From the NCBI GenBank assembly GCA_021324355.1, contig JAJPJD010000032.1, forward strand, positions 1 through 59,047: a stretch of DNA of 59,047 nucleotides, written 5' to 3'. The notes below the pieces were generated by a model, which saw nothing but the letters and a program-made list of their open reading frames with translations, did not search any database and was not told the DNA's origin. Shown here piece by piece: positions 18,445 through 39,142 of the stretch (position 1 is the first letter of the stretch; each line of letters starts with the position of its first letter). The position numbers were made by a program, and so were the translations under genes. The stretch is from Actinomycetota bacterium (GTDB taxonomy: Bacteria > Actinomycetota > Acidimicrobiia > Acidimicrobiales > RAAP-2).

Positions 18445-18623
18445 GAGGACCGCCTCGGCTCGCCCAAGACCGTGCAGTCCACGGTCTTGAGGACAAACGC
18501 CAGGAGCTCGTCCAAGGAGCGCACGGCGAAGCGCTGGCCGGTGGCCACCGCCTCCACCTCGCCCCGGAACCGACCGTCGCGCAGCCCCTCGGGCCGCACC
18601 CTCAGCACATAGGAGACGAACAC
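18441..18623 (-). CDS. 60-residue unknown protein coupled to the sugar transferase
   Basis: GTG start at 18623, giving a compact alpha/beta-looking protein that begins with FVSYVLRVRPEGL and contains VEAVATGQRFAVRSLDEL. No family name recognised. It overlaps the priming transferase by four bases and is divergent from the diguanylate cyclase gene, so it is the first gene of the - strand polysaccharide operon. A small accessory or regulatory subunit is possible. Confidence 0.6.
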   Translation of the reverse strand: MFVSYVLRVRPEGLRDGRFRGEVEAVATGQRFAVRSLDELLAFVLKTVDCTVLGEPRRSS

Positions 18624-23775: not shown

Positions 23776-24890
23776 TCCGACACCTCCCGAGCTGGACCGC
23801 CGGCAGCCGGCTGGCTCGAGCCCTGCGCCCCCGCCGCCTGGCCACCACGGCCGCCCTGCTGGCCGCCGCTGCCCTCGCGCTGTGGCTGCTGGTCCGGGTG
23901 GTGGCGGACGCGACCGTCCACTCGACGACGCCGACTCACGCCGCCTCCCCCACCGCCCACGCCCCAACGGTTGGCCGACGCGCTGGCGTCGCGCACCGCC
24001 GGCTGGTCGCACCCCGGCCCCCCGTCCCCTTGGGCGTCTACGCCGGCCCGGGTTCGGTGGCGACCGCCGACGCCTTCGGCGCCGCCGCCGGGGCACCGGT
24101 CCCCTACGCCTTCGACTACCTGGACGGGACGTCGTGGCAGACCATCGACGACCCCCGCTGGTTCCTCGAGCGCTGGGACGGGAGCGGCTTCAAGATGATC
24201 TGGGGTGTCCCGATGCTCCCGTCCACCGGAGGGGCCACCATGGCCGCCGGGGCGGCCGGACTCTACGACGGCTACTTCAGCACGCTGGCCCAGGTGTTGG
24301 TGGCCAACGGCCAGGCCAACTCGCTGATCGCGCTGGGCTGGGACCCCAACGACGCGTCGGTGCCGTGGGCCGCGACCAGCGCGCAGGCGGCCCGCCTGTA
24401 CGTCGCGTACTGGCGCCAGGTCGTCACCACCATGCGGTCGGTGGCCGGCCAGCAGTTCCTCTTCGTGTGGGACGACGCCGCCGGCTCCGGGGTCGCTCCG
24501 GACACGCTCTACCCCGGCGACACCTACGTCGATCTGGTGGCGACCGACGCCTTCGACGTGGGCCTCGGGCTGGCCAATCCCAGCTGGAGCGAGCTGGCCT
24601 CGGCCGCCTACGGCCCAGACTGGTTCGCGGCATTCGCCGCCCAGCACCACAAGCCGTTCATGATCGCCAAGTGGGGCGTGGTCCCGACCGCGGCCTCGGG
24701 CGGCGGCGACGATCCGACCTTCGTGCGCCAGTTCCTGGCATGGGCTGCGCAGGAGGGCGTGGTCATGGCGGTGGCCTGGGACGACGGGAGCTGGGCACTC
24801 GCCGGCGGCTCGTTCCCCCGGTCAGCGCAGATGCTCCGCACCGCCGAGGCGGACGCCCCAGCGCCCTTGGCGCGTGCCGTGGGCGCCTGA
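23772..24890 (+). CDS. membrane-anchored GH26-like protein, probably without glycosidase activity
   Basis: 372 residues: a cationic N-terminus, one transmembrane helix (about 26-46), a Thr/Pro/Ala linker, then a (beta/alpha)8 domain resembling GH26 mannanase-type enzymes (FKMIWGVPML, YWRQVVTTMRSV, YPGDTYVDLVATDAFD). In GH26 the acid/base Glu sits in a GWEFN-like stretch and the nucleophile in a PEWG-like stretch. Here these read GWDPND and AKWGV, so both glutamates appear replaced by Asp and Lys. A carbohydrate-binding or scaffolding role outside the cell is therefore more likely than cleavage. Overlaps the previous gene (GTGA). Confidence 0.78.
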   Translation: MIRHLPSWTAGSRLARALRPRRLATTAALLAAAALALWLLVRVVADATVHSTTPTHAASPTAHAPTVGRRAGVAHRRLVAPRPPVPLGVYAGPGSVATADAFGAAAGAPVPYAFDYLDGTSWQTIDDPRWFLERWDGSGFKMIWGVPMLPSTGGATMAAGAAGLYDGYFSTLAQVLVANGQANSLIALGWDPNDASVPWAATSAQAARLYVAYWRQVVTTMRSVAGQQFLFVWDDAAGSGVAPDTLYPGDTYVDLVATDAFDVGLGLANPSWSELASAAYGPDWFAAFAAQHHKPFMIAKWGVVPTAASGGGDDPTFVRQFLAWAAQEGVVMAVAWDDGSWALAGGSFPRSAQMLRTAEADAPAPLARAVGA

Positions 24891-24928: not shown

Positions 24929-27433
24929 TCAGCCGGCCAGCTCCAGACGGCCGTCCCGGCGCCATCGGGCCCGCACGCCGGTCACCACCGCCGGCGGGCT
25001 CCCGCCGGGCTCGCCCGGTCGGTGGGGACGGGCGAGCCCGGCACCGCGCAGCACCAGCGTGCCCACCACACCCACTGCGACCGGCTCGCCAGCCTCGTCG
25101 ACCACCTCGGCGCGGGCCCCAGCCCTCGGTCGCCCAAGGGTGAGCGGCCCGTCGGCCTCCACCGGGCCCCACAGCGCGTACCCAGTGGCCTGTGGCCCTC
25201 CGAGGGCGACCCACAGTGCCTGGGTCCGGGCCGCCAGCAGGTCGCGCAACTGGTCATCCAGCCCCGGCAGCCCGACCAAAGCCCGCAGGCCACGGATCGG
25301 GCGCAGCCCGGTCTCGACCAGCCGACGCCACCGAGCGGCCGAGGCGTGGAGGAACGAGGCTCGTTCGGCCGAAAGCAACCGGCTGAGGGCAGCGCCGTCC
25401 TCGGCCAGCGGGGCGGGGGCGAGCACCACCCGAGCGCCGGCCGACAGCGGCGCCCACAGCTCGAGCGCCGAGCACGAGGAGAGGGTCTCCGGCAAGACGA
25501 CGACCGTGTCGGCCGGCCCGAGGCCGAGGTCCCCCGCCAGGGCACTGCACCGCGTGGCCACCGCCCTGTGGGCGAGCGCGTAGGCCTCGACACCCTCGCC
25601 GCCGGGGTCGGCGAACTGGACGCAACACGTGCCGGCGTCGACGACCGGCGGCCGGCTGCCGTCACCACGAGCCCCGATCGGCTCGGCCGCTCCGGTGAGG
25701 CGACCACCCAACTCGGCGTCGGCGTACACCAGGGTCGCCTCGGCCGCGTCGAGGAGTGCCTCGAGGCGCTCGGCCGGCAGGGCCGGGTCGACCAGGAGGT
25801 AGGCGGCACCGGCCAGCATGACCCCGAGGGCGTTCGCCACCAGCGCCGGGTCGGGCGACGTGCACAGCGCGACCAGGTCGCCCGCCCCCACCCCGGCCGC
25901 CGCCAGCCGCTGGGCGCAGGCGGTGGCCCGCTCGAGCAGCTGGCGGTAGGTGAGGCCGGTGCCGGCACCGCACAGCGCGCTCGACTCGGCGTGCCGGTCG
26001 GCCACCGGACTCAGCAGTTCGGGCACCGAGGCGGCGGTCGGCTCGACGTCGGTCGCGTTCCACCGGGCGACCGCCAGCCGGTCGCCTTGGGAGGGGGCCA
26101 GCAGCTGCCGCACCGGCACCGTCGGCTCCTCGGCCGCCCGGCCCACCACCGCCACCCAGTGCTCGAGCATGGCCATGGCGCTGTCCGGCTCGAACAGGGA
26201 GCGGTCGTAGACGAGCCGGCCCTCGATCGAGCCGTCGGGGCGCTCGTCCAGGCCGAGTTCGAGGTCGAGCTTGGCCGCGCCGACCACGTCTCCGATGGCT
26301 GGCTCCATCTGGTGGATCGACCACGACGGGTCCGGCACCACCATCGTTGGCTCGAGGACCACCATGGTCTGGTAGACCGGGTTGGCCCCGGCCACGGTGG
26401 CGAGCCGCAGGTCGCGCACGATGCGCTCGAAGGGCACCAGGTGCTCCAACCCGTCGAGCACCTCGTTTCGGGTCCGGAGCACCACGTCACTGAACGCGTC
26501 GTCCGGCCTCACCCCGACCCGCAGCACGAGCGGGGTGAGCGAGCAGCCGACCACCCCTTCGAACTCCGGGCGCTGCCGGAGGTCGGCGGCCGTCGAGAAG
26601 ACCACGTCGTCCTGGCCCGCTCGCCCGGCGAGGACGACCGCCCAGCCGGCTGCCAGCACCTGGAACAAGGTGGCCCCGACTCCCTGACCGAGCGTCCGCA
26701 GCCGGCGCACCACCATGGCGTCGAGGTCCACCGAGACCACCCGGCCCTCGGGGCGGGCCGCGCCCCGCCGGTGATCGAGCGACAAGGTCGAGGCCGGCGC
26801 CCCGGCCAGGTGGCCACGCCAGTACTCGAGCCGCCGACGGGCGCGCGGTCCCTCGATCCAGTCCTGCTCCCAGCGGGCGTAGTCGAGGTAGCTCGTTGCC
26901 GGTTCGTCGAGCGGGCTGGGCCGACCCTCGAGCGCGGCGTCGTAGAGGGCGACCAGCTCGGGGAGGACGATCCGATAGACGCTCACCCCGTCGAAGATGA
27001 GGTGGTGCATCGCCAGGTAGAGGCGGTGGTGGTCCGGGGCGAAGCGGATCAAGCGGGGTCGAAGCAGCGGCCCTCGCCGCAGGTCGTAGGGGACCCGGGA
27101 CGCCTCGGCAACTACCCGGACCGCCTGGGCCTCGGCATCCTCGCCCAGCGAGCTGAGATCGAGGAGCGGCAGGTCGAAGGCAACCCCATCGTGGACCACC
27201 TGGACCGGCTGGCCACCACGCACCTCGAAGGTGGTCCGCCAGGCCCGGTGGCGTCGGACGACCTCGTTGAACGCCTGCCGAAAGGCCGCCAGGTCCATCG
27301 GCCCGTCCTTGCGGATGGAGATGGTCTCGTTGTAGGTGCGGGCATCGGGCGCCAGCACCGACTGGTAGTAGATGGCCTCCTGGGCCACCGAGATCGGAGC
27401 CGATTCGCCGGCTGCGCCCGGGACCCCGCTCAC
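24929..27433 (-). CDS. NRPS condensation domain fused to a degenerate adenylation domain
   Basis: 834 residues from GTG. Residues about 10-440 are a condensation domain with the catalytic HHLIFDG (143-149). The rest follows an adenylation fold (LTYRQLLERA, GDLVALCTSPDPALV, AYLLVDPALPAERL) but lacks the P-loop: the expected TSGSTG region reads VQFADPGGEG. It also stops at the hinge, so the C-terminal subdomain with its catalytic Lys is absent, and there is no carrier domain. It probably works as a free-standing condensation enzyme on substrates carried elsewhere. It overlaps the P450 gene (GTGA). Confidence 0.88.
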   Translation of the reverse strand: MSGVPGAAGESAPISVAQEAIYYQSVLAPDARTYNETISIRKDGPMDLAAFRQAFNEVVRRHRAWRTTFEVRGGQPVQVVHDGVAFDLPLLDLSSLGEDAEAQAVRVVAEASRVPYDLRRGPLLRPRLIRFAPDHHRLYLAMHHLIFDGVSVYRIVLPELVALYDAALEGRPSPLDEPATSYLDYARWEQDWIEGPRARRRLEYWRGHLAGAPASTLSLDHRRGAARPEGRVVSVDLDAMVVRRLRTLGQGVGATLFQVLAAGWAVVLAGRAGQDDVVFSTAADLRQRPEFEGVVGCSLTPLVLRVGVRPDDAFSDVVLRTRNEVLDGLEHLVPFERIVRDLRLATVAGANPVYQTMVVLEPTMVVPDPSWSIHQMEPAIGDVVGAAKLDLELGLDERPDGSIEGRLVYDRSLFEPDSAMAMLEHWVAVVGRAAEEPTVPVRQLLAPSQGDRLAVARWNATDVEPTAASVPELLSPVADRHAESSALCGAGTGLTYRQLLERATACAQRLAAAGVGAGDLVALCTSPDPALVANALGVMLAGAAYLLVDPALPAERLEALLDAAEATLVYADAELGGRLTGAAEPIGARGDGSRPPVVDAGTCCVQFADPGGEGVEAYALAHRAVATRCSALAGDLGLGPADTVVVLPETLSSCSALELWAPLSAGARVVLAPAPLAEDGAALSRLLSAERASFLHASAARWRRLVETGLRPIRGLRALVGLPGLDDQLRDLLAARTQALWVALGGPQATGYALWGPVEADGPLTLGRPRAGARAEVVDEAGEPVAVGVVGTLVLRGAGLARPHRPGEPGGSPPAVVTGVRARWRRDGRLELAG

Positions 27434-28662
27434 CTGGCGCAGACGCGCAGCTCGGTGAGGCCCCGGAGCCCGAGGTTGGGCCGCCAGGTCACCTCCTCGT
27501 CGGCGAGCTCGAGGGAGCCGAAACGCGCCAGCATGGTCGAGAACGCGATCTGGCCCTCCATGCGGGCCAGCGGCGCCCCGAAACAGAAGTGCGCTGCCCA
27601 CCCGAACGCCAGGTGGCGGTTGTCCTGGCGACCGAGGTCGAGACGGTCGGGGTCCTCGAAACGCCATGGGTCGCGGTTGGCAGCGCCCATCACCGCGATC
27701 ACCGCGTCCCCCTCGGGGATGGGCACGCCGGAAAGGACCGCGCCACCGGGCGCGAGGCGCGCCGTGTGCTGGCTCGGGCTCTCGTAGCGGAGGAGCTCTT
27801 CGACCGCGCTGTGCATGATCCCCGGATCGGCACGGAGCCGCTCCAGCTGGTCGGGCTGGCGGAGCAGGGTGAGCAGACCGTTGCCGATGAGGTTGGTCGT
27901 GGTCTCCTGACCGCCGACCATGGTGACGATCACATTGGCCACCACCTCGGACTCGCTCAACCGGTCGCCGTCAACCTCGGCGGTGCTCAGGGCATGGATG
28001 AGCCCGTCGGTGGGGCGACGGGCTTCGCGGCGGACCGCAGCCGAGAAGTACTCGGTCATCTCCTCGACCGCCCGCAGCGACCGGCTCGCCCGACCCGGGT
28101 TGTGCTGGAAGTTGCCCAGCATCTCGGCGAAGTCCTGCGACCATCCCTTTAAGAGCTGGTGGTCGGAGGTCGGGACTCCCAGCATCTCGGCGGTGACGAT
28201 GGCCGGCAGGGGGTTGGCGAGCGCGCGCATGACGTCGAAGGTCCCGGCGCCAGCGACCTCGTCCAGCAGACGCTCGGCGATGGATTTGATGTGCGCACGG
28301 AGCACCGCGACCCGGCGAGGGGTGAACGCCCCCGACGCCAGGCGCCGGACCCGACCGTGCTTCGGCGGGTCGAGAAAGAGCATCTGCTCCACCATGACCC
28401 TGGCGATCGGGGTGAGCTCGGTCAGTCCCAGCTCCTCCAGCCGCTGCGGGGTCGGCGTGCGATCGGCCGAGAAGCGGTGGAGCACCTCGACCACGTCCGG
28501 ATACCTGGTGACCACCCAGGCATGCAGGTAGGGGTCCCAGGAGACCGGCGCCTCCTCCCGCAGCCGGCGGTAGAGGGGGTAGGGGTTGGCCAGCACGTCG
28601 GGGTCGAGCAGCTGGACCAGGCTCGGCGCCGGGGCCTGCGGACGGGCGGCTGGTGCGCTCAT
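27430..28662 (-). CDS. cytochrome P450
   Basis: 410 residues with all core features: I-helix GGQETT (250-255), ExxR in EELLR (288-292) and the heme loop FGWAAHFCFG with the Cys ligand at 360. Soluble bacterial type; it needs external ferredoxin and reductase, none of which is nearby. It lies between the A-T and condensation genes with overlaps on both sides. P450s so placed often hydroxylate an amino acid while it is bound to the carrier domain, so beta-hydroxylation of the loaded residue is the leading guess. Confidence 0.93.
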   Translation of the reverse strand: MSAPAARPQAPAPSLVQLLDPDVLANPYPLYRRLREEAPVSWDPYLHAWVVTRYPDVVEVLHRFSADRTPTPQRLEELGLTELTPIARVMVEQMLFLDPPKHGRVRRLASGAFTPRRVAVLRAHIKSIAERLLDEVAGAGTFDVMRALANPLPAIVTAEMLGVPTSDHQLLKGWSQDFAEMLGNFQHNPGRASRSLRAVEEMTEYFSAAVRREARRPTDGLIHALSTAEVDGDRLSESEVVANVIVTMVGGQETTTNLIGNGLLTLLRQPDQLERLRADPGIMHSAVEELLRYESPSQHTARLAPGGAVLSGVPIPEGDAVIAVMGAANRDPWRFEDPDRLDLGRQDNRHLAFGWAAHFCFGAPLARMEGQIAFSTMLARFGSLELADEEVTWRPNLGLRGLTELRVCAR

Positions 28663-30437
28663 TGGCGCGCCTCCTCGGCCGTCCGCTCGGCCAGCTGACG
28701 GTCCACCGCCGCCGCGATCTCGCCCAAGGTTGGATGGTCGAACAAGTACCGCAGGCTGAGCTCCACGTCGAACAGGGCCTCCAGCCGCACGATCAACTGC
28801 GCACCGAGCATGGAGTGGCCGCCCAGGAGGAAGAAGTTCTGCTCCGGCCGGACCGCCGGGACGTCGAGCAGCTCGGTGAGCACGGCCTCGATTCTCGCCT
28901 CGGTCGGTGTGAGCGGTGGCGGATCCCCGGCGTCACACCGGGCGACGCGCTCCGGTGCGCCCAAGGCTCCGAGCGCGGCTCGGTCGACCTTGCCGTGCGC
29001 GGTCAGGGGCAGCGCGTCGACCCAGACGAAGCGGTCCGGCACCAGGTACTCGGGGAGCGAGGTCCGCAGGTGCTCGACCAGCTCGACGCGCCCTGGGCGG
29101 GCGGAGCCGCTCGGGACGAGAAACGCCACAAGTTGCCGCTCGGCGCTGGTGGCTCCGACGCCGGTGACCACGCTGGCCGCCACCGCCGGGTGGGCGTTGA
29201 GCGCCGCGGTCACCTCCCCCGGCTCGATGCGGTAGCCCCGGATGCTCAACTGGTCGTCGAGGCGGCCGAGGAAGTCGAACGAGCCGTCGGCACGCTGACG
29301 GACCAGGTCGCCCGTGCGGTAGCGACGGTCGGAGCCCTCGCCCACGAAGCGCTCGGCGGTGAGCTCGGGCCGGTTCAGATAGCCGCGGGCGACGGCGATG
29401 CCACCCAGGACGAGCTCACCGGGTTCTCCCGGCGGCACCGGGTCGCCGTCGGCCCCGACCACCGAGGCCACCACGCCGGTGATCGGGCGGCCGATGGTCG
29501 GCGGGCCGTCGCCGTCGGGCTCGACCACCCCGGAGGTCGCGACGACGGTGGTCTCGCTCAGTCCGTAGTTGTTGACCAGCCGAAACGGCAGGCCCCGAGG
29601 GGGGCGCCGACTCAGGGCGTCACCGCCGGTCAGCAGGTAGCGCAGGGCGGTCCGCTCGGGCCAGCCGAGACCGATCACGCCCTCGGCGAGGGCGGTCGGG
29701 ATGAACGACACCGTCACCGAGGCGGCGACCAGCCAGTCGCGCAGGCCCACCGGGTCGGTCCGCAGCTCCGCCGGGACCACGTGCAGGGAGGCCCCGACCG
29801 CGAGCGCCGGCCATACCTCCCAGATCACCGCGTCGAAGCCGGGGCTCGAGATCTGGGTGCAGCGGTCGGCGAAGGAGAGCTCGAAGGCCTCGGTGTGCCA
29901 GGCCACCAGGTTGGCCAGGCTCGCATGGTCCACCACGACCCCCTTGGGCTGGCCGGTGGAGCCGGAGGTGTACACCACGTACGCCGGGTCGTCGGGCCGG
30001 GCCCGCGCCGGCGCCCCGGAGCCGCCGGCACCCGGCAGCCGACCGCCCCGCCCGAGCACCACCAGCCGGTCGGCCTCGCCCAGCCGGGCCCCGGCCGCCT
30101 CGTCGGCTACCACCGCCCGGGCGCCCGAGTCTTGCAGCATCCAGGCGATCCGCTCGTCGGGGTACTGCGGGTCGATGGCCACGTAGGCAGCCCCGGCCCG
30201 CAGGATGCCCAGCGCCCCCACCACCAGCGCAGCGGAACGCTCCACGCACAAACCGACCAGGTCGCCAGGGCCGATCCCCCGCCGGGCCAGCGCATGGGCC
30301 AGCCCGTCGGCCCGCTCGAGGAGGTCGCCGTAGGTGACGGTGGCCTCCGAGCTGTGCACCGCCAGGCGCCGGGGTCGGGACGACGCGACCTGCTCGACCA
30401 GGTCGACGACCGTGGAACCCAGTACGACGGCTGTCAT
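28659..30437 (-). CDS. NRPS adenylation-thiolation module, leucine-like code
   Basis: 592 residues, ATG with GGGAGGA nine bases upstream. Adenylation domain with YTSGSTGQPKG (156-166), YGLSETT, YRTGD, GRLDDQLSIRGYRIE and the C-terminal K483; then a carrier domain with the phosphopantetheine Ser in LGGHSMLG (S542). Aligning to PheA gives specificity residues D202, A203, W206, F245, L269, G271, N290, V298, V299, K483, i.e. DAWFLGNVVK, a known leucine signature. There is no condensation or thioesterase domain, so it loads one amino acid for downstream partners. The stop overlaps the P450 start. Confidence 0.93.
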   Translation of the reverse strand: MTAVVLGSTVVDLVEQVASSRPRRLAVHSSEATVTYGDLLERADGLAHALARRGIGPGDLVGLCVERSAALVVGALGILRAGAAYVAIDPQYPDERIAWMLQDSGARAVVADEAAGARLGEADRLVVLGRGGRLPGAGGSGAPARARPDDPAYVVYTSGSTGQPKGVVVDHASLANLVAWHTEAFELSFADRCTQISSPGFDAVIWEVWPALAVGASLHVVPAELRTDPVGLRDWLVAASVTVSFIPTALAEGVIGLGWPERTALRYLLTGGDALSRRPPRGLPFRLVNNYGLSETTVVATSGVVEPDGDGPPTIGRPITGVVASVVGADGDPVPPGEPGELVLGGIAVARGYLNRPELTAERFVGEGSDRRYRTGDLVRQRADGSFDFLGRLDDQLSIRGYRIEPGEVTAALNAHPAVAASVVTGVGATSAERQLVAFLVPSGSARPGRVELVEHLRTSLPEYLVPDRFVWVDALPLTAHGKVDRAALGALGAPERVARCDAGDPPPLTPTEARIEAVLTELLDVPAVRPEQNFFLLGGHSMLGAQLIVRLEALFDVELSLRYLFDHPTLGEIAAAVDRQLAERTAEEARQ

Positions 30438-30611
30438 TCGATCGCTTCCTCCCTGTGCGCGGCCCGCCGCGAACACGAAGCGTGGCGACAGGACCCTGCC
30501 CAGCGCCCGCTCCGGCGGCACGCCGATTGCGTGGTGCTGGCAGGGTACGGGTGCGCCGTCCCAGCGCCGTCTGTGCGATGTCCCAGGTTCTGGAGCCGAA
30601 AACGGGAGCAA

Positions 30612-31295
30612 TCAGAGCGGGCGCGGCGGGCCGAGCCGCCATGGCCCGCTCGAGCGTCCGGCCACCGCCGCTGCGAACTCGTCGCCGAGGTCGATCGGAT
30701 GGACCCTCCACTCACCGACGGTGGTCGAGGCCGCTCCGGGGACCCAGGTGACCACGGAGCCGGCGGGCCCCGGCAGCCCGGTGCCGGTGCCCTTCAGGTA
30801 GGCCTCCTTGCAGCTCCAGCACTGGTAGGCGGCACGGTGGCGGGCCTCGGGACCCATCGACGCCAGCGCCGCCTGCTCAGCTGGGGCGAAGAACCGAGCG
30901 GCGACTGCCTCCATGGCGACGTCGGGCCGAATGGCCTCGAGATCGACCCCGACCTCGAGGGTCCAGCTGGTGGCGATCAGCATCCGGCTCGCGCTCTTGG
31001 AGGTGCTGAAGCGCAGCGGCGAACCGGACAGCGCCGGCTTGCCGCCGACGGCCAGCTGGAGTCGCAGGGCCGCCGGTGCCACCCCGGTCAGCCGGCCGAG
31101 CAGGCCTCGGAGGACGGCTCGCCCGACCACGAAGCGGGCCTGGTCGACCGGCGCCACGAACGAGGCCGCTCGGGACACCTCGGCCGACGACAGCAGCTGG
31201 ACGCCCGCCTCCACCGCGCCAGCCGACAGGTCGAGATCGGTCCACCACAGGTCGACCTGGTGCGGCGACGCTGACCCCCTGGGTTGCGGGCCCAC
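30612..31295 (-). CDS. Sfp-type 4'-phosphopantetheinyl transferase
   Basis: Attaches phosphopantetheine from CoA to carrier proteins. From GTG at 31295 the product is 227 residues with VGVDLEAIRP (metal-binding D118 and E120) and WSCKEAYLKGTG (W160, K163, E164, K168). Where Sfp-type enzymes usually have a NxSHS-like stretch this one reads FSTSKSAS, so the CoA-contacting His is a Lys. It heads the - strand cassette and is the obvious activator of the A-T carrier domain 175 bases downstream. The frame is open upstream; this start is where family similarity begins. Confidence 0.88.
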   Translation of the reverse strand: MGPQPRGSASPHQVDLWWTDLDLSAGAVEAGVQLLSSAEVSRAASFVAPVDQARFVVGRAVLRGLLGRLTGVAPAALRLQLAVGGKPALSGSPLRFSTSKSASRMLIATSWTLEVGVDLEAIRPDVAMEAVAARFFAPAEQAALASMGPEARHRAAYQCWSCKEAYLKGTGTGLPGPAGSVVTWVPGAASTTVGEWRVHPIDLGDEFAAAVAGRSSGPWRLGPPRPL

Positions 31296-31336
31296 CCGGG
31301 CACTGTAGAGGGCCGGGCACGGCCGGTCCCGCGCTG

Positions 31337-31383
31337 CGAGCCTGGGCCAGCCGAGCCTGGGACAGCGCCGAGCCTGGGACAGC
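31337..31383. repeat. three tandem 15-base iterons in a divergent promoter region
   Basis: CGAGCCTGGGCCAGC at 31337-31351 is followed directly by CGAGCCTGGGACAGC at 31352-31366 and, after two bases, by the same word at 31369-31383. They lie in the 206-base gap between the phosphopantetheinyl-transferase gene (-) and the PelD-like gene (+). Same-orientation tandem copies in a divergent regulatory region suggest a multimeric regulator binding site serving one or both operons. Confidence 0.6.
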
Positions 31384-31501
31384 AAGGAAACGGCGTCGGG
31401 ACGCGGACTCCGTACGCTGGGGGCAGCGAGGTGGCCGGCGGCCACGCGGGCCCGGTGGCCCGCACCGACCCCAAGTTCGGACCCGATCAGGAGGGCAAGG
31501 C

Positions 31502-32902
31502 GTGTCGACGACGATGACCGACGACCACGGACGTGCCAACGGAGCGCACGGCGGGGTGGGCCACCTGCTCCGGATGGCCAAGACCCAGTGCGGCGGGTCG
31601 CTTGCGTTCGCGGCCTTGCGCAAGCCCGACGGTGGGTTCGCGATCGCGACCTTCCCCACCCTGACCGCCGATCCGACCTGGACGGTCGAGTCGGTGGACG
31701 AACTCGTCCGCCAGACCTGGGAGGACCCACACCTGACCAGTGGCACGGTGCTGGTGCGGAGCGGTCGGGTGCTGCGCAGCATGTGGACCGGACAGGGCCA
31801 CCACATCAAGCTGGCGGTGGCCGCCCTGAGCGATCCTGACGCGCCCCAGCACCCCTGGGGGCTGCTGTGCGTGGCCGAGCCGGTGGCCGGCCACTTCGAG
31901 CAAGACCAGCTCAAGACCCTGGCTGCGTTGGCCGGTCGGCTCACGTCCTACTTGCGGGCCCGCCAGCGAGTCCTCGAGGGTGGCCTGGCCGCCCCCACCG
32001 AGACCCCTGCCCCACCCCCGCCAGTAGCAGCCGAGCCCGCAGCGCCGTCGACCGAGCCGCTGGTCGCCGCTGGCCCGACGTCGCCGGCGGCGAGCCAGTC
32101 GTGGGCCGAGGGCCTCGAAGCCCTGGGTGAACCGCCGGCCGTGGAGCCGACCATGGACGACGTCGAGCACGAGGAGCACCCGCTGGAAGCCGCCGCCGAC
32201 CGTCTCGAGGCGTTGGCCAGCTGGGGCCAGCCGGCCCATGAGAGCCGGGTCGACGACTGGGAGTTCCTCGGTCTCGACCAGATCGAGTGGGTCGAGGCGC
32301 TGACCCCTCCCCCGCCGCCCGACGACCTCGGGGCGGCGCCGGCGCCCGACGAGCCGGCCCGGCCTGCGTCGAGCGAACCCATGGCGGGCACGGGCGGTGG
32401 CGACGCCCCGGTGTTGTCGGCTCCTGCCGATCGACCTGCCGGGACCCAAGACCTCGATGCCTTGCTCGCACCGGACCCCGAGACTGGGCTGGCCGGCCTC
32501 ACCACCTTGGTCGGCCGGCTCGGCACCGCCCTGGCCGGGGTCGCCAACCACGAGGGCACCGTGGGGCTGATCCTGATCGAGGTCGCCCCGGGTGAGCCGG
32601 GCCAGGACCTGGGCCCCACGGCACGCCTGGCCGTGGCCGGCCGGCTGACCAACCGGCTGCGCGAGCGCGACCTGGTCGCTCGGATCGGGCCCAACCTGTT
32701 CGCCGTCTTGGTCGACCTGCGGCCCGAGGCGAGAGAGCTCGAGGCGATCCGGGCCCGCATCACCGACGCGCTCGCCTCCGGGGTCGACCCCGCCAGCGGG
32801 CCGCTCCAGGTCCGCACGGCCATGACCCTGGCCGAGGCAGGCAGCACCGAGACGGCCGAGTCCCTGCTCCGCCGAGCCGCGGACGAACTCGCAGGACGAT
32901 GA
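31502..32902 (+). CDS. GAF plus degenerate GGDEF protein, candidate c-di-GMP receptor (PelD-like layout)
   Basis: 466 residues, GTG start with AGGAGG seven bases ahead. An N-terminal GAF domain (about 15-150) leads into a Pro/Ala/Glu-rich linker, then a GGDEF-like domain (about 320-460) beginning DPETGL. The active-site motif has become GPNLF (396-400) so cyclase activity is not expected. R387-E-R-D390, exactly five residues upstream, keeps the RxxD inhibitory site that binds c-di-GMP. GAF plus inactive GGDEF with intact RxxD is the layout of PelD, the c-di-GMP receptor of Pel polysaccharide export, although here no membrane helices are seen. It overlaps the flippase gene (ATGA). Confidence 0.82.
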   Translation: MSTTMTDDHGRANGAHGGVGHLLRMAKTQCGGSLAFAALRKPDGGFAIATFPTLTADPTWTVESVDELVRQTWEDPHLTSGTVLVRSGRVLRSMWTGQGHHIKLAVAALSDPDAPQHPWGLLCVAEPVAGHFEQDQLKTLAALAGRLTSYLRARQRVLEGGLAAPTETPAPPPPVAAEPAAPSTEPLVAAGPTSPAASQSWAEGLEALGEPPAVEPTMDDVEHEEHPLEAAADRLEALASWGQPAHESRVDDWEFLGLDQIEWVEALTPPPPPDDLGAAPAPDEPARPASSEPMAGTGGGDAPVLSAPADRPAGTQDLDALLAPDPETGLAGLTTLVGRLGTALAGVANHEGTVGLILIEVAPGEPGQDLGPTARLAVAGRLTNRLRERDLVARIGPNLFAVLVDLRPEARELEAIRARITDALASGVDPASGPLQVRTAMTLAEAGSTETAESLLRRAADELAGR

Positions 32903-34986
32903 GCCTCGGCTCGCCCGCTGGCGCGAGCGTCGAGGTCGGCCCTCCGGGACCTCCGGCGGTCGAGCGCGCCGGCGACCGCACCACCGCTGGCCTCACCCTC
33001 GGGCAGCTGGCAGTGCGCGGCGGCAGCTACCTGTTCGGTCGGGAGGCCATCGGCACCCTGGTCCGCCTGGGCGGCGTGGTGGTGGTGGTCCGCCTGATCG
33101 GCCCCAGCGCGTTCGGGATCTACACCGCGGCGGCAGCGTTCTCGCTGTTCACGGCCAGCTTCGCCCAGATGGGGCTGGAGGTGTACCTGATCCGGCTGGG
33201 CGCCGACCTCGAGGCCCGCCACTACGACCAGGCGTTCAGCGTCCTGGTGGTGCTGTCGCTGGCCGTCACCTCGATCGGCGAGGGGCTGACCTTCGCCCTT
33301 GGCGGGATCCTGCGACCGGTCGGAGTGCTCCTGCCGCTCCGAGTGCTGCTGGCCAGCATCCCGCTCAACGTGCTGTGGGCACCGGCCCAGGCCGCGATCG
33401 AGCGACGGTTCGACTACCGGATCATGGGCCTGATCGAGCTGGGCGGAGACGTCATCTTGTACACGACCGCGATCCCCCTCGCCCTCACCCACCACCGGCA
33501 GTGGTCCCTGGTCGCCGGGTTCGTCGCGTGGCAGGGGTGGCTGTTCGTCGCCACCTGGCTCGCGTCGGGCCTTCGCTACCACTGGAACTGGTCGCTGCCG
33601 GCAGTTCGCGAGTTCGTCCGCCACGGATTGGGCTTCTCCAGCTCGGACTGGCTCCGGCGGGCCGGGGACCTGATCAACCCGCTGGTGGTGGGGACCTTCT
33701 TCGGGGCAACCGGCGTCGGCTACGTCGCGTTCGCGCAGCGCCTGGTCGACACGGTCGGCTTCGCCAAGCGCAGCGCCTTCCGCCTCGGGATGGTCGCACT
33801 GTCGCGGGTCTCCGACCGCGACCACGCCCGGCTCCGCTACTCGATCGAGCAGGGGTCGCTCCTCCAGCTGCTCTCCCTGGCGATCCCCTACGGCTGCTTC
33901 AGCGTGGTCGCTCGCTGGGTGGTGCCGGCGGTGTTCGGGCACCAGTGGACCCGGAGCCTGCCGGTGTTCGCCCTGCTGGCGCTGGCCACCACGGCGAGCG
34001 CCAGCGGTCTCATCCAGACCACTTTCTTGTACAGCCGGGGCCGCAACCTGGCGGTGACCGGGGTGGTGCTGCTCCGGGACCTGATCCTGGGGGCCAGCGC
34101 GCTGGTGCTGGTGCGGCGGCTGGGCATCGACGGCTTCGGCCTGGCGGCCCTGGCCGCATTGGGCGCGCTCGTCTCCCTCCACTACCAGGTCCGGCGCACC
34201 ATCGCCTTCAGCTACCGCCGGATCTGGCCGTGGCTGGTCGCCCTCGGCCCCGCCCTGGCATTCCCAATGGTGCCGATGCCCGAGTCGCTGGCGCTGCTGG
34301 CCCCGCTCGGCCTGCTCGCCCTCCCCTCGATGCGCGCCGAGCTGGTCCGGCTGGCCGGCTTGCTCCGCCGGACCACCGCCGCGCCGCGAGATCCCGCCGC
34401 CACCGCAGCTGCCGGTGCGCCCCCCGCACGCGGCCGCCTCGGCCCGGCCGGCCAGAAGCTCGCCCAGCTCTTCGGTCCCGACCCGGTGACCGGGTTGCCC
34501 GGCCTGCCGGCCTTCGTGGCCCAGCTGGGCGGATCGCTCAACCCGACCCGGCCCAGGCGCTCGACGGTCGGGGTGGTCCTGGCCGAGCTGTGCGGGCCCG
34601 AGCCGCTGGCCGAGGCAGACCTGCGAGCGGTGGCGGCCCGGCTGACTGCCTCGGTGCGGGCCCGAGACCTGGTGGCCCAGCTCGCCCCAGGGGTCTTCGG
34701 GGTGCAGGTCGCGCTCCCCTACGACGTCGACCTCGGCCCGTTGGCCGACCGGATCGGCCGGCTCGTGGGCCAGGGTCGGCCCACCGGGGCCCGCAGCGCC
34801 TACGCCGCCGCCCGCGGTGGCGCCGAGGTCAGCGCCGAGGCGCTGCTCCGGTTGGCGGTGGCCCGCCTGCACGGCTCCCACTGCCAACCCGAGCCGCTGT
34901 GGCTGCACAGCCTGCGGGCATTGGGATCGGGCACCGAGCCCGGAGGGAACGGGGCAGTGCGCCCTGTGGTGGAGGCGCTGCGATGA
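32899..34986 (+). CDS. Wzx-type polysaccharide flippase fused to a degenerate GGDEF domain
   Basis: 695 residues. Residues about 30-490 are a polytopic membrane protein of the oligosaccharide flippase (Wzx/MATE-like) superfamily with GREAIGTLVRLGG, LIGPSAFGIYTAA and about twelve to fourteen helices; it should move lipid-linked repeat units across the membrane. After a Pro/Ala linker, residues about 525-640 align with a GGDEF domain: DPVTGLPGLPAF (D528 on), then R587-A-R-D590, five residues, and APGVF (596-600) in place of GGDEF. The cyclase site is gone but RxxD remains, so I infer direct c-di-GMP control of the flippase. It overlaps genes on both sides (ATGA). Confidence 0.85.
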   Translation: MSLGSPAGASVEVGPPGPPAVERAGDRTTAGLTLGQLAVRGGSYLFGREAIGTLVRLGGVVVVVRLIGPSAFGIYTAAAAFSLFTASFAQMGLEVYLIRLGADLEARHYDQAFSVLVVLSLAVTSIGEGLTFALGGILRPVGVLLPLRVLLASIPLNVLWAPAQAAIERRFDYRIMGLIELGGDVILYTTAIPLALTHHRQWSLVAGFVAWQGWLFVATWLASGLRYHWNWSLPAVREFVRHGLGFSSSDWLRRAGDLINPLVVGTFFGATGVGYVAFAQRLVDTVGFAKRSAFRLGMVALSRVSDRDHARLRYSIEQGSLLQLLSLAIPYGCFSVVARWVVPAVFGHQWTRSLPVFALLALATTASASGLIQTTFLYSRGRNLAVTGVVLLRDLILGASALVLVRRLGIDGFGLAALAALGALVSLHYQVRRTIAFSYRRIWPWLVALGPALAFPMVPMPESLALLAPLGLLALPSMRAELVRLAGLLRRTTAAPRDPAATAAAGAPPARGRLGPAGQKLAQLFGPDPVTGLPGLPAFVAQLGGSLNPTRPRRSTVGVVLAELCGPEPLAEADLRAVAARLTASVRARDLVAQLAPGVFGVQVALPYDVDLGPLADRIGRLVGQGRPTGARSAYAAARGGAEVSAEALLRLAVARLHGSHCQPEPLWLHSLRALGSGTEPGGNGAVRPVVEALR

Positions 34987-35423
34987 ACCACAAGCGGCCC
35001 GACCTGCAGACCGCCGTGGAGCTGGTGGAGGTGGACGCGGTGGCCCGCGCCGTTCGTCGGTTCGGGGATCGGTACCTGCGCGAGGTCTTCACCGAGCACG
35101 AGATCTCCTGCTGCGGGCGCCGAGGCGGGCCGTTGTCCGCGCTCCAGCTGGCCGCCAGGTTCGCGGCCAAGGAGGCGACCTTGAAGCTGCTCGGCCCGGC
35201 GGCCGGACGGCCCGGCTGGCGATCGGTCGAGGTGGTTCGCCTGCCCACCGGGGCCTGCCAGCTCCGGCTGCGCGGCGCCGCGGCGCGGCTGGCGCTGCAA
35301 CGGGGACTCGGTCCGTTCACCGTGAGCCTGACCAGCGAAGCCGGGCTCGCGGCGGCGGTGGTGACCTGCGGGTCCGCGCCCGGGACCGAGCAACCAAGGA
35401 CAATGAGGTCCTCCGACCAGTGA
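34983..35423 (+). CDS. AcpS-like holo-acyl-carrier-protein synthase
   Basis: 146 residues, ATG overlapping the flippase stop. It shows the AcpS signatures: VELVEVDAVARAVRRFG with the metal-binding Asp, FTEHEI, and RFAAKEATLKLLG with the Lys-Glu pair. It should transfer phosphopantetheine from CoA to a carrier protein; the carrier gene starts 12 bases downstream, so that is the likely substrate. A second phosphopantetheinyl transferase beside the separate Sfp-type enzyme suggests the two carrier systems are kept apart. The last 20 residues look non-conserved. Confidence 0.87.
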   Translation: MNHKRPDLQTAVELVEVDAVARAVRRFGDRYLREVFTEHEISCCGRRGGPLSALQLAARFAAKEATLKLLGPAAGRPGWRSVEVVRLPTGACQLRLRGAAARLALQRGLGPFTVSLTSEAGLAAAVVTCGSAPGTEQPRTMRSSDQ

Positions 35424-35435
35424 CGAGGAGTTGAG

Positions 35436-35681
35436 GTGCGGGAGCAGATCCGAGCTGTCATCGAGCAACATGCACGGCTGTCGGTTCCGATCGAGGCAGT
35501 CGACGACCACACCGACCTGTTCCAGGCCGGCATGACCTCCCATGCCAGCGTCAGCCTGATGCTGGCTCTCGAGGAGGCATTCGGCGTCGAGTTCCCCGAG
35601 GCGATGATCCGCAAGGCCACCTTCCAGTCGGTGGCCGCGATCGAACAGGCACTGCTCGAGTTGGGTGGGGTCCCGGCGTGA
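35436..35681 (+). CDS. discrete acyl/aminoacyl carrier protein
   Basis: 81 residues from GTG, acidic and helical, with the phosphopantetheine attachment Ser at S35 in DLFQAGMTSHASV, followed by the typical helix II LALEEAFGVEFPE. It lies between a transferase that can prime it and a class II ligase that can load it, so it most likely carries an amino acid, not a fatty acid. The stretch from this gene to the ligase (58 bases) holds only the ligase's ribosome site (AGAGGAG). Confidence 0.9.
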   Translation: MREQIRAVIEQHARLSVPIEAVDDHTDLFQAGMTSHASVSLMLALEEAFGVEFPEAMIRKATFQSVAAIEQALLELGGVPA

Positions 35682-35739
35682 GCGCGATGCCCACCGCCGG
35701 GTCCGCACGACCGGCCAGCCCGTCCAGAGGAGCCCAAAG

Positions 35740-36651
35740 GTGAGCGTCCTCGACGCCCACCTGGACATGCGGGACCGCCTGCTCGCCGCCGGCCTGCTCT
35801 ACCCGACCGGGGTCGACGGCGTCTACGCCCGCTCGGAGGCCTACGAGCGCATCGCCGCCGCGCTGGACGCCACGGTGCGCCGGTGGGGAGCGGGGCTCGG
35901 CGCGACCCTGCTGCACCTCCCACCGCTGCTGCCCCGCACCACCTTCGACGGGACCGACTACGTGCGTGCGTTCCCCGATCTGATGGGCTCCGTGCACGTC
36001 TTCGAAGGATCCGACCGCGAGCACGCCGAACTGGTCCGTCGGGTCGAGCGAGACGAGGACTGGTCGGGTCTGCTCGGGCCGGCCGAGCTGGTGCTCGCCC
36101 CCGCCCTGTGCCATTTCATCTACCCGATGTGCTCGGGCCAGGTCCCAGACGGCGGCGTCCTCTACGAGGCGATCGGCTCATGCTTCCGCCATGAGCCCAG
36201 CGCCGACCCCACTCGCCTGCAGACCTTCCGCCTCCACGAGGTCGTCTACGTGGGCGAGCCGGCACGGGCGCTCGAGCACCGCGACCGCTCGCTCACCGCG
36301 GGGGTGGCGCTGCTGGAGCAGCTCGGCCTCTCGATCAGCGTGGTCCCGGCCAACGACCCGTTCTTCGGCCGCCTGGGTGCGGCGCTGGCAGCCGAGCAGC
36401 ACGAGGAGGGGCTCAAGTACGAGGGGGTGGCGCCGGTGGTCCCGGGAGCTCGGCCCACCGCGCTGCTCTCGAGCAACTACCACCGCGACCACTTCGGGGT
36501 GCCGTTTGGCATCCGGACCGCCGACGGCCAGACCGCCCACAGCGCCTGCATCGGCTTCGGCACCGATCGGATCGTGCTCGCGCTGCTGGCCGAGCACGGC
36601 CTCGACCCCGAGCGCTGGCCGTCGGAGGTCGGCATGGAGCTCTTCGGGTGA
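35740..36651 (+). CDS. amino acid:carrier-protein ligase (class II tRNA-synthetase-like)
   Basis: 303 residues, GTG start. It resembles the catalytic core of atypical seryl-tRNA synthetases without a tRNA-binding arm, like the Bradyrhizobium enzymes that load amino acids on carrier proteins. Motif 2 is CFRHEPS...RLQTFRLHE, motif 3 GFGTDRIVLALL. The three zinc ligands of that family are present: C124 (PALCHFIYP), E167 (RLHEVV) and C270 (HSACIGFG); the 103-residue spacing of the last two equals that described for the family. It should activate a small amino acid with ATP and pass it to the carrier protein just upstream. GTGA overlap with the hydrolase gene. Confidence 0.9.
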   Translation: MSVLDAHLDMRDRLLAAGLLYPTGVDGVYARSEAYERIAAALDATVRRWGAGLGATLLHLPPLLPRTTFDGTDYVRAFPDLMGSVHVFEGSDREHAELVRRVERDEDWSGLLGPAELVLAPALCHFIYPMCSGQVPDGGVLYEAIGSCFRHEPSADPTRLQTFRLHEVVYVGEPARALEHRDRSLTAGVALLEQLGLSISVVPANDPFFGRLGAALAAEQHEEGLKYEGVAPVVPGARPTALLSSNYHRDHFGVPFGIRTADGQTAHSACIGFGTDRIVLALLAEHGLDPERWPSEVGMELFG

Positions 36652-38372
36652 GCATCGCCCCGACCACCACCCCGGCGGCCGCCGACGAGGACCTCGCCCC
36701 ACTGGCCAGCGCCCGGTGGTTCGGCCCGACCGGGCGTCCGCTGTTCGGCTGGGTGCACCATCCGGCCGACGGACTGGCCTCGGGCGGCGTCGTGCTGTGC
36801 CCACCGCTTGCTCGCGAGTGGGTCAACGCCCACTACTGCTACCGGGTGCTGGCCGAGCAGCTGGCCGCGGCCGGACTGCTGGCCGTGCGCTTCGACTACG
36901 ACGGCACCGGGGACTCGGCCGGGTCCGATCACGACCCCGACCGAACCGAGGCGTGGCTGGCCAGCATCGAGGCCGCAGTGGCGCTGGTCCGGCAGGCCGG
37001 GTGCCGGTCGGTCTCCCTGGTCGGGATGCGGATCGGCGCGCTGCTGGCAGCGGTGGCAGCGGCCCGGATGGGCGGCGTGTCGGCCGTCGTGCTGTGGGAC
37101 CCGTGCCCGTCCACCCGGTCCTTCCTCCGGGAGCAAGCCGCCCTGGCCCGGCTGGCCGGCGTGACCGACCACCCCGAGCAGGCCGCCGGCGAACTGCCCG
37201 GGATGGTGCTCGGCCCGAAGAGTGCGGCCGACCTCGAGGCGCTCGCGGTGCCGCCGCCGGTCACGCCGCCTGACCGGGTCCTCCTGCTCACCCGGCCCGG
37301 ACGCCGGCCGCAGCTCGATCTGGCCCAGGCCCTCGGGGCAGAGGTCACCCATGGGGCGGCCGACGGCCAGGAACGGCTGTTGGAGGTCGACCTGGCGGAG
37401 CGCCAGGTCCCCGACCGGACGGTCGCAGAGGTGGTCAGCTGGCTGCGCGCGGACGCGGCCGGGCGCTCACCGGTCACCGTCCCGGGCACGGACCAGGCGC
37501 GGATCGCGCTCGGAGCGACCGAGCTCAGCGAGCGAACGGTCCGGATCGGCCCCGCCGGCCTGTTCGGGATCGTGACCGAGCCGCCCGCCCCCGCCGTCTC
37601 GACCACCGTGCTCATGCTGAACAGCGGCAACAACTCCCACGTCGGCCCGAGCCGGCTCTGGGTCGAGCTGTCGCGGCGGTGGGCGGCGATGGGCGTCCGC
37701 TGCGTCCGCCTCGACCAGAGCGGCCTCGGCGACAGCCCGACTCGACCCGGCCAAGCGCCCCAGGTGATTCGGGCCCCGGAGAACTTCGACGACGTGGCCG
37801 ACGCCCGCCGGGCGCTTGCCACCGACCCCCACGACGTGGTGCTGGTCGGCTTGTGCTCCGGCGCCTACCAGGCCCTGGAGGCCGCCTTGGACCAGCCGGC
37901 CCGAGCGGTGTACGCGATCAACCCGGTCCTGCACTTCACCCCGCCCGAGCTGGCGACCGGCCCCATGGACCCCAGGCGGCGGATCTGCTGGCCAGTCGGG
38001 TCGGTGGTCAGCGCGTACCGGCTCCTGGCGGCCCAGCCGCTCCGGCGACGGCTGAGCAAGCTGACCTGGAAGCTGGCCCATCGGCTTCACCGTCGGCGCA
38101 GCCCGATCGGCTGGCTCGGGGAGCTGCAGCGAGCGGGGACGAAGGTGCTCATCATGTGCGGCTCCGACGAAGCCCGCTCCTTCGGGCTGGAGACCTACGG
38201 GTCCCTGGTCGGCCAGGCCGGACGGTCGGTCCAGGTCGAGGTGGTCGAGGGTCTGGACCACGCGCTGGTCCCGGCCCGCCAGCGCGTGGCAGTCGCCCAG
38301 CGCCTCACCGACCACCTGGTCCAGCTGCTCGGGACCCTGCCGGCGCCGTCGGCGGCGACCCCGGGGCCATGA
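36648..38372 (+). CDS. tandem alpha/beta-hydrolase protein
   Basis: 574 residues holding two alpha/beta-hydrolase folds. The first (about 25-270) has RFDYDGTGDSAG and, at the nucleophile elbow, GMRIG (126-130): the Ser is an Arg, as in the GLRLG-type hydrolases of exosortase-associated loci, so it is probably not a classic esterase. The second (about 290-560) has RLDQSGLGDSPTR and GLCSGA near residue 400, with a Cys in the nucleophile position, and GLDHAL supplying a His. It could release or transfer the acyl group from the carrier protein. It overlaps genes at both ends. Confidence 0.8.
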   Translation: MSIAPTTTPAAADEDLAPLASARWFGPTGRPLFGWVHHPADGLASGGVVLCPPLAREWVNAHYCYRVLAEQLAAAGLLAVRFDYDGTGDSAGSDHDPDRTEAWLASIEAAVALVRQAGCRSVSLVGMRIGALLAAVAAARMGGVSAVVLWDPCPSTRSFLREQAALARLAGVTDHPEQAAGELPGMVLGPKSAADLEALAVPPPVTPPDRVLLLTRPGRRPQLDLAQALGAEVTHGAADGQERLLEVDLAERQVPDRTVAEVVSWLRADAAGRSPVTVPGTDQARIALGATELSERTVRIGPAGLFGIVTEPPAPAVSTTVLMLNSGNNSHVGPSRLWVELSRRWAAMGVRCVRLDQSGLGDSPTRPGQAPQVIRAPENFDDVADARRALATDPHDVVLVGLCSGAYQALEAALDQPARAVYAINPVLHFTPPELATGPMDPRRRICWPVGSVVSAYRLLAAQPLRRRLSKLTWKLAHRLHRRRSPIGWLGELQRAGTKVLIMCGSDEARSFGLETYGSLVGQAGRSVQVEVVEGLDHALVPARQRVAVAQRLTDHLVQLLGTLPAPSAATPGP

Positions 38373-39142
38373 CCGCTTCCACCGGGCACGCCGTCGGGCG
38401 GGCGGCCACCGACCCGGCCACCAGGCGTCGACCGGGTCCCAGCGCGTGGCGCCTCTACGGGTCGATTCCGGCCGGGCTGCGTGCTCGGATGGAGCGCCTG
38501 GCGGTGGTCCAACGGCTGAAGCGCCGCGCCGTCGGCGTCGACACCGCACGGGTGCTGCGGGTGGTGGGGGCGTTCGAGGCCGCCGGCCTCCCGGTGTGGC
38601 TGGCCGGCGGCTGGGGGGTCGACGCGCTGGCCGGCCGCCAGACCCGCTGGCACCACGACCTCGACCTGGTGGTCCGAGCCGAGGACGACCAGGCGGTGGC
38701 CCGCTGCTTGGCCACGCTCGGGTTCGAGCCCTACACCGCCGCGGTGGTCCCATGGGCCGGGTTGCCGACGAGCCGGGTCTTTCGCGACCGGTTGGGCCAC
38801 CACGTCGACGTGCACCCAGTGTCGGTGGCGGAGCGGAGCAGCGGCCACCACGAGGTCCCATTCCTGACCGAGGACGCGTTCGCCACTGGGACCATTGCCG
38901 GCCGTCCGGTCGGATGCCTGAGCGCCGAGGTCCAGCGAGCGTTCCACCGGGGGTACCCGCCTCGGGACCGCGACCTCCAGGACCTAGCCACCCTGCGGGC
39001 GGTCCTCGACCGGCGGGCCGAGCGGGAAGCGGCCACGCACCTCCCAGCGCCCTCCCGGGTCCTCGGCCATGAGCAAGACGGCCCGAGCCCGGGCGGCGAT
39101 GGGGACGGCGGTCTCGATTCGGGAGCGCCACGAACGCCGTAG
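38369..39142 (+). CDS. nucleotidyltransferase of the lincosamide/aminoglycoside adenylyltransferase type
   Basis: 257 residues, ATG overlapping the hydrolase stop. The centre has WLAGGWGVDALAGRQTRWHHDLDLVV, the GG...DxD core of this nucleotidyltransferase family, followed by HHVDVHPV. Such enzymes add AMP to a hydroxyl; resistance to antibiotics is the known role of some relatives, but as the last gene of a biosynthetic operon a role in tailoring the product is equally possible. The last 50 or so codons run antisense to the conserved end of the facing 2H-phosphoesterase gene, so this tail is probably not conserved. Confidence 0.8.
   Translation: MTASTGHAVGRAATDPATRRRPGPSAWRLYGSIPAGLRARMERLAVVQRLKRRAVGVDTARVLRVVGAFEAAGLPVWLAGGWGVDALAGRQTRWHHDLDLVVRAEDDQAVARCLATLGFEPYTAAVVPWAGLPTSRVFRDRLGHHVDVHPVSVAERSSGHHEVPFLTEDAFATGTIAGRPVGCLSAEVQRAFHRGYPPRDRDLQDLATLRAVLDRRAEREAATHLPAPSRVLGHEQDGPSPGGDGDGGLDSGAPRTP

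Follow-up and report, generated by a model that had tools for sequence, protein, structure and literature searches.

Can the flippase of a polysaccharide export locus carry its own receptor for cyclic di-GMP (c-di-GMP)? This question is raised by a 59,047-nucleotide stretch of DNA (hereafter the window) from an Actinomycetota bacterium of the order Acidimicrobiales, RAAP-2 in GTDB (assembly GCA_021324355.1, contig JAJPJD010000032.1, positions 1 to 59,047). Here the gene P0001 (32899–34986, + strand) encodes a Wzx-type polysaccharide flippase of the MOP (multidrug/oligosaccharidyl-lipid/polysaccharide) superfamily, whose chain runs on into a C-terminal dead GGDEF domain. An earlier reading of the letters alone (the sequence-only reading) had taken this tail for a catalytically inactive GGDEF domain acting as a built-in c-di-GMP receptor. 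Our analysis suggests that the tail, together with the product of the gene directly upstream, P0002 (31502–32902, + strand), on balance probably represents dead GGDEF domains that retain their inhibitory site for the reception of c-di-GMP and serve a Wzx/Wzy-type exopolysaccharide locus with a diguanylate cyclase of its own.

The open reading frame of P0001 starts with ATG and encodes 695 amino acids. Its flippase part (residues 1–480; 32899–34338, + strand), delimited by alignment of orthologues, matches PF13440 at residues 62–354 (E 5.7e-33, 114.8 bits with a cut-off of 23), and PF13440 and PF01943 are the only Pfam matches of this part. The membrane part is followed by a proline- and alanine-rich linker and then by the domain of approximately residues 516–660 (34444–34878, + strand). 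GC content at third codon positions is 83–98% in each 150-base block, tail included, giving a coding-type composition throughout. An origin of the tail as a frameshift or missed-stop artefact is ruled out by this composition and by the recurrence of this architecture at 10 loci in 9 genomes, counting the window's own; the fusion, which the sequence-only reading proposed to look for elsewhere, thus recurs.

The tail alone has no match to the Pfam GGDEF model up to an E-value of 10, and because Pfam is blind to it, homologues and fold prediction were needed to recognise the domain. It aligns with the C-terminal domain of P0002 at 40% identity over 154 residues (E 1e-16), and two of the eight orthologous tails scanned score above the cut-off of PF00990, with 27.1 and 29.5 bits, the other six reaching 12.2–20.5 bits. 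AlphaFold2, run on an alignment of 12 dead domains taken from the window plus six related loci, predicts a GGDEF fold for the tail with a mean predicted local distance difference test score (pLDDT) of 81.8 and a core above 90. In Foldseek, the best solved structures among the matches listed for this model are GGDEF domains (WspR, PleD and others; E 1.2e-7). VIA-align superimposes the model on 4yme (Z 15.9, root-mean-square deviation (rmsd) 2.2, 133 residues aligned) and on PleD 9g86 (Z 15.8, rmsd 2.3, 140 residues aligned), and in the PDB a profile built from the dead-domain sequences matches diguanylate cyclases, at best with E 1.5e-9. By prediction, the tail of P0001 is a GGDEF fold. The PF13440 match, the P0002 alignment and the predicted fold bear out the earlier description of a Wzx-type flippase continuing into a GGDEF-like domain, and AlphaFold2, Foldseek and VIA-align agree with the folding expected there; the span given for the domain (residues 525–640) is indeed GGDEF-like, but the domain is wider.

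The partner P0002 consists of a GAF-like domain, a linker of approximately 150 amino acids and a dead GGDEF domain (residues 312–465; 32435–32896, + strand) with the motifs R387-x-x-D390 and GPNLF. Its stop codon overlaps the start codon of the flippase (ATGA), and no membrane helices are obvious in it by eye. The C-terminal domain scores 22.9 bits with PF00990 (E 7.8e-5, cut-off 23.8) and 24.9 bits in the genome scan. The predicted model of P0002 has a mean pLDDT of 50.1 and is reliable in the GGDEF part alone, which matches the same GGDEF structures as the tail. As the model is poor elsewhere, support for the GAF fold comes from Pfam matches, which are above the GAF cut-off for the partner in genome G013 and weak in the others. 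The variable linker holds at residues ~222–262 a stretch conserved within the window's genus (EHPL...DDWEFLGL..EWVE), possibly a docking motif. Judged from their sequences, the GGDEF domains of the tail and of P0002 are paralogous and catalytically dead.

What remains of the active and inhibitory sites in these domains is more telling. The inhibitory-site motif R587-A-R-D590 (34657–34668, + strand) is separated by five residues from APGVF (residues 596–600; 34684–34698, + strand), which replaces GGDEF, and the positions given in the sequence-only reading are confirmed. We aligned 66 domains, comprising 32 partners, 10 tails and 24 true cyclases; partners and tails together make up 42 dead domains. 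Locus L045 was dropped from this alignment as the same locus as L038, and of the split partner of genome G004 the half-gene L121, which lacks the GGDEF part, stands outside the 32 partners while the other part (117 amino acids, cut by the contig end) is counted among them. RxxD is kept five residues before the motif in 10/10 tails and 32/32 partners, which answers the question of its conservation among homologues, and GG[DE]EF is kept in no tail (0/10), no partner (0/32) and 22 of the 24 true cyclases. R587 and D590 are the sole invariant columns among 142 across the 42 dead domains, a comparison that serves as a control for chance. Column 618, where R618 (34750–34752, + strand) occupies the position of the third c-di-GMP-contacting arginine, holds arginine in 28 partners and histidine in 4, and each of the two in 5 tails, so that all 42 dead domains have one or the other.

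Most of the metal-, GTP- and base-contact residues of cyclases are gone from the dead domains, in line with the inactivity that had been expected from APGVF. An active diguanylate cyclase is rejected for the tail, since APGVF stands in place of GG[DE]EF and most metal-site residues are gone. Intact GGDEF domains of these bacteria often have RxxD too, so the telling point is its survival in dead domains and not its presence. In the window's own genome RxxD is found in 4/6 intact GGDEF domains and is absent from 2/6, and its retention is therefore not automatic. Survival of RxxD in the dead domains would be the pattern expected of a selected receptor site on a dead enzyme, though it is no proof of binding, and a c-di-GMP receptor role of these domains appears likely.

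To place the fusion among relatives, the flippase was sought in 61 genomes, which gave 14 matches; those in G045, G046, G055 and G059 were weak (E 3e-10 to 9e-4) and were left out of the flippase homologue set, as was a fragment on contig 80 of G004. A search for the partner in 172 genomes of the family had 22 hits, spread over 6 of the 21 genera. In 298 genomes of the order the partner profile found 15 matches, of which 4 have both domains (the window's own included) and 11 cover the GGDEF part alone, being ordinary GGDEF proteins by motif; the flippase profile found 3 matches in 395 genomes of the class, again including the window's own. No further GGDEF-tailed flippase was seen beyond the family in these 298 order and 395 class genomes. 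Near relatives of the flippase among named records are metagenome assemblies of Acidimicrobiaceae and Actinomycetes.

The fetched loci were scanned with GAF-like, GGDEF-like and flippase profiles built from the first relatives found. The partner lies directly upstream in 14 of the 19 flippase homologues with surroundings fetched; the remaining five are L041 (a slice without partner), L070 and L071 (partner on the other side), L132 (no partner) and L122 (a fragment at a contig end). Ten of the 14 partner–flippase pairs have the dead GGDEF tail, and in the sampled genomes such tails have been seen in just three genera, all within a single family. The tails in G004 and G005 contain both domain types of the partner, the GAF-like and the GGDEF-like one, joined by a short linker. 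In a tree of the 66 domains, which has several long branches, true cyclases stand separate (100/100) and the tails require three changes. A second tree of 46 rows rejects a single grouping of all ten tails (approximately unbiased test, p-AU 4.9e-46) and does not reject a grouping of the five tails of the window's genus (p 0.137). As the grouping of all tails is rejected, the neighbour was probably fused to the flippase on two or more occasions; such repeated fusion could be mimicked by gene conversion between adjoining genes.

A receptor would need a signal, and the window's genome, a 2.45-Mb draft that is 96% complete, appears equipped for it. Six true GGDEF matches besides the partner and five EAL matches are over the cut-off, and from this count it is very likely that the organism makes and degrades c-di-GMP; PilZ gave no match at E 0.001 in the genome assembly. 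The locus itself holds a true diguanylate cyclase with PAS domains (18742–20535, + strand; GGDEF 150 bits, RSSD-IVARL-GGDEF). A true cyclase lies in the locus of 7 of the 14 pairs, and the other 7 fetched slices stop short of that place. The sequence-only reading, sound on fold and RxxD, had overlooked both this cyclase and the paralogous partner upstream. In genus g4, loci L102, L105 and L107–L119 have partner-type proteins right beside a true cyclase and no flippase of the P0001 family in the fetched slice; it is possible that such neighbours form a general cyclase–receptor pair.

PelG of the Pel system is a MOP-superfamily protein, and MurJ/MviN belongs to the same superfamily. According to excerpts of PMC7112168 and PMC8461298, PelD, which has a GAF and a dead GGDEF domain, binds c-di-GMP via RxxD and a further arginine and forms complexes with PelG. 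The present pair resembles it in having a dead GGDEF domain with RxxD, a candidate for the further arginine and, in P0002, a GAF-like domain, paired with a membrane protein, and the receptor proposal for partner and tail is drawn from this analogy. The spacing from the aspartate to the further arginine is 29 residues in Bacillus cereus PelD, 32 in Pseudomonas aeruginosa PelD and 28 here, the equivalence of R618 with PelD R402 being by spacing and alignment only. In the Pel system, however, PelD is a membrane protein in its own right, whereas here one dead GGDEF domain sits on the flippase and another in its neighbour, within a Wzx/Wzy-type locus. The PelD GGDEF model PF16963 has no match up to E 10 in P0001 or P0002, and an assignment as PelD is rejected on this ground; the likeness would be one of working and not of sequence. 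PelD is also absent among the structural matches listed (50 per search for tail and P0002) and among 35 and 33 sequence matches, which proves nothing. Excerpts of PMC7112168 report that the GGDEF domain of B. cereus PelD, too, was overlooked by sequence programs.

Three other systems are also close to the one described here. Cellulose synthase BcsA carries its own PilZ c-di-GMP receptor (excerpts of PMC8461298); from what is given there, it is likewise an export machine with a built-in receptor, and it differs in that PilZ is on the synthase whereas here a GGDEF relic is on the flippase. The view of the sequence-only reading that known c-di-GMP control of polysaccharide export acts through separate receptors is therefore too strong. 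BcsE is described in the same source as a dead GGDEF-like domain with an intact inhibitory site in a polysaccharide secretion system, but it is a separate cytosolic subunit of the cellulose synthase complex. Mycobacterial MurJ/MviN, a proposed lipid II flippase, has a pseudokinase domain after its last membrane helix (excerpts of PMC6180346) and so resembles P0001, as far as described there, in being a flippase with a dead-enzyme regulatory domain at this place; its control, in contrast, is by phosphorylation and FhaA, its substrate is lipid II and no nucleotide signal is involved.

With PelD as the guide, direct gating of the flippase by c-di-GMP is plausible by analogy. The PAS-bearing cyclase of the locus would raise c-di-GMP, an intercalated dimer of which could bind RxxD and R618 on the tail as well as the corresponding site of P0002, and so would probably bridge both proteins. 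The altered cytoplasmic assembly might then switch the flippase or recruit the remaining machinery, with activation as the sign of the effect being a guess from PelD. We infer that c-di-GMP binds, that it links the tail to P0002, that the tail lies in the cytoplasm and that transport is affected. In the sequence of P0001 the last hydropathy segment is followed by five arginines. The full account, in which a c-di-GMP dimer joins the flippase tail to the partner domain, and perhaps to the cyclase too, and so opens or closes the export of lipid-linked sugar, the neighbour having probably been fused at least twice, is one that we put forward tentatively.

Several observations speak against a gated flippase with the tail as receptor. 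In PelD a GAF domain adjoins the GGDEF domain, but the tail of P0001 has none, and the hydropathy plot of P0001 gives merged segments that do not settle the topology, for which a MOP/Wzx flippase would show 12–14 membrane helices and an inner C-terminus. Histidine replaces the third arginine in five tails, all from G013 and genus g4. RxxD is present in the intact GGDEF domains of 24/24 cyclases of the aligned loci and of 11/11 order-wide GGDEF proteins. Being found in nearly all intact domains seen, the motif may have a role other than reception, and GGDEF domains dimerise. Both points would suit a tail that is a ligand-free docking domain, the GGDEF domains of flippase, P0002 and cyclase forming hetero-oligomers that place cyclase or partner at the export site, with RxxD serving packing or contact; the adjoining paralogous pair and the repeated fusion fit this as well. 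We regard such docking as unlikely, since no other of the 142 dead-domain columns is as well conserved as R and D, ligand binding by PelD needs both of them (excerpts of PMC7112168) and RxxD is missing from two of the six intact domains of the own genome. In most dead domains an acidic residue persists at the first metal-site position (glutamate in 29 and aspartate in 6 of 42), and some non-canonical sites such as AGDEF remain active (excerpts of PMC3974145), which is what can be said for a domain that still makes c-di-GMP or senses GTP. With GG[DE]EF in none of the dead domains and most other metal- and base-contact residues gone, this is hardly credible.

Faster evolution of the tail is what speaks most strongly against tight constraint on its role. 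The ratio of nonsynonymous to synonymous substitution rates (dN/dS) exceeds the flippase value two- to threefold, with 0.43 versus 0.16 for G003/G006, 0.31 versus 0.14 for G004/G005 and 0.68 versus 0.27 for G000/G006 (dS 0.94). Moreover, the flippase is tailless in 4 of the 14 pairs (G001, G002, G017 and G018), and receptor function may for this reason lie mainly in P0002. Carried further, P0002 would be the sole receptor and the tail of the window's protein a decaying relic of fusion; among the 10 tails this one sits on the longest terminal branch, and it has no Pfam GGDEF match. Against such decay stand RxxD in every one of the tails, an intact reading frame of coding composition, a dN/dS still below 1 and a fusion that probably occurred at least twice, and we consider the relic quite improbable. 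A receptor site kept on the dead domains of partner and tail is the reading that we favour.

The remaining genes identify the setting. An initiating polyprenyl glycosylphosphotransferase (16972–18495, − strand, start approximate; TIGR03025 over cut-off) and a Wzy-like polymerase/ligase (22075–23775, + strand), which has no Pfam match of its own and whose L045 orthologue matches Wzy_C with 45.7 bits, are both present alongside the flippase, as in a Wzx/Wzy-type locus. A gene resembling glycoside hydrolase family 26 (GH26; 24024–24890, + strand, start provisional; PF02156 24.9 bits, cut-off 20.2) lies in relatives between the Wzy-like gene and the partner. The usual order is initiating transferase, PAS-diguanylate cyclase, Wzy-like, GH26-like, partner and flippase, followed by genes for an AcpS-like phosphopantetheinyl transferase (34983–35423, + strand), an acyl carrier protein (35436–35681, + strand; NF005480 over cut-off), an amino acid–[acyl-carrier-protein] ligase (35665–36651, + strand; NF005479, 365 bits, cut-off 357) and a two-domain alpha/beta hydrolase (36648–38372, + strand), whose likeness to exosortase-A-associated hydrolases 1 and 2 stays under the cut-off. 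All pairs but L103, 13 of the 14, have matches to AcpS, carrier protein and ligase close to the flippase, and the set from 34983 to 38372 is perhaps used for aminoacyl modification of the polysaccharide.

Between the GH26-like and partner genes the window also holds nonribosomal peptide synthetase modules, a P450 and a phosphopantetheinyl transferase (24929–31730, − strand). Such a block is found in G003 and G006 too, while G001 and G002 have just a C-A module there and G005 has none. Downstream, a nucleotidyltransferase (38369–39142, + strand) resembles lincosamide and aminoglycoside enzymes far below the NCBIfam cut-offs. Its relatives occur in one frame with Wzy and Wzx, which suggests a role in glycan formation and not in resistance: L070 (12361–16236, − strand) and L071 (11894–15931, − strand) have single frames of 1292 and 1346 amino acids with Wzy_C, a nucleotidyltransferase-like part and a flippase of the P0001 family, apparently polymerase and flippase in one protein. 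A 1339-amino-acid frame in L132 (7078–11094, + strand) joins a flippase of this family to a GT4-type glycosyltransferase similar to window 45006–46814. Scans of the region for promoters and repeats gave nothing useful.

Each element is already known singly: a dead-GGDEF receptor in polysaccharide export, an export machine that includes its own receptor, and a flippase bearing a pseudo-enzyme domain. What seems new is their combination on a Wzx flippase. Our searches of open-licence PubMed Central turned up no Wzx flippase with its own c-di-GMP receptor, in keeping with the sequence-only reading, which knew of no described example, and the words 'flippase' and 'Wzx' are absent from a 2025 review of c-di-GMP effectors (PMC12564702). 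According to excerpts of PMC12802240 (2025), c-di-GMP acts post-translationally on synthase-type polysaccharide pathways, and post-translational control of Wzx/Wzy pathways is incompletely understood. If the receptor reading is true, a flippase with a c-di-GMP site would put a switch on the transport step and would offer a tractable system, largely in one protein, for the gating of lipid-linked sugar flipping. In these bacteria the signal may then switch polysaccharide export at the flippase itself.

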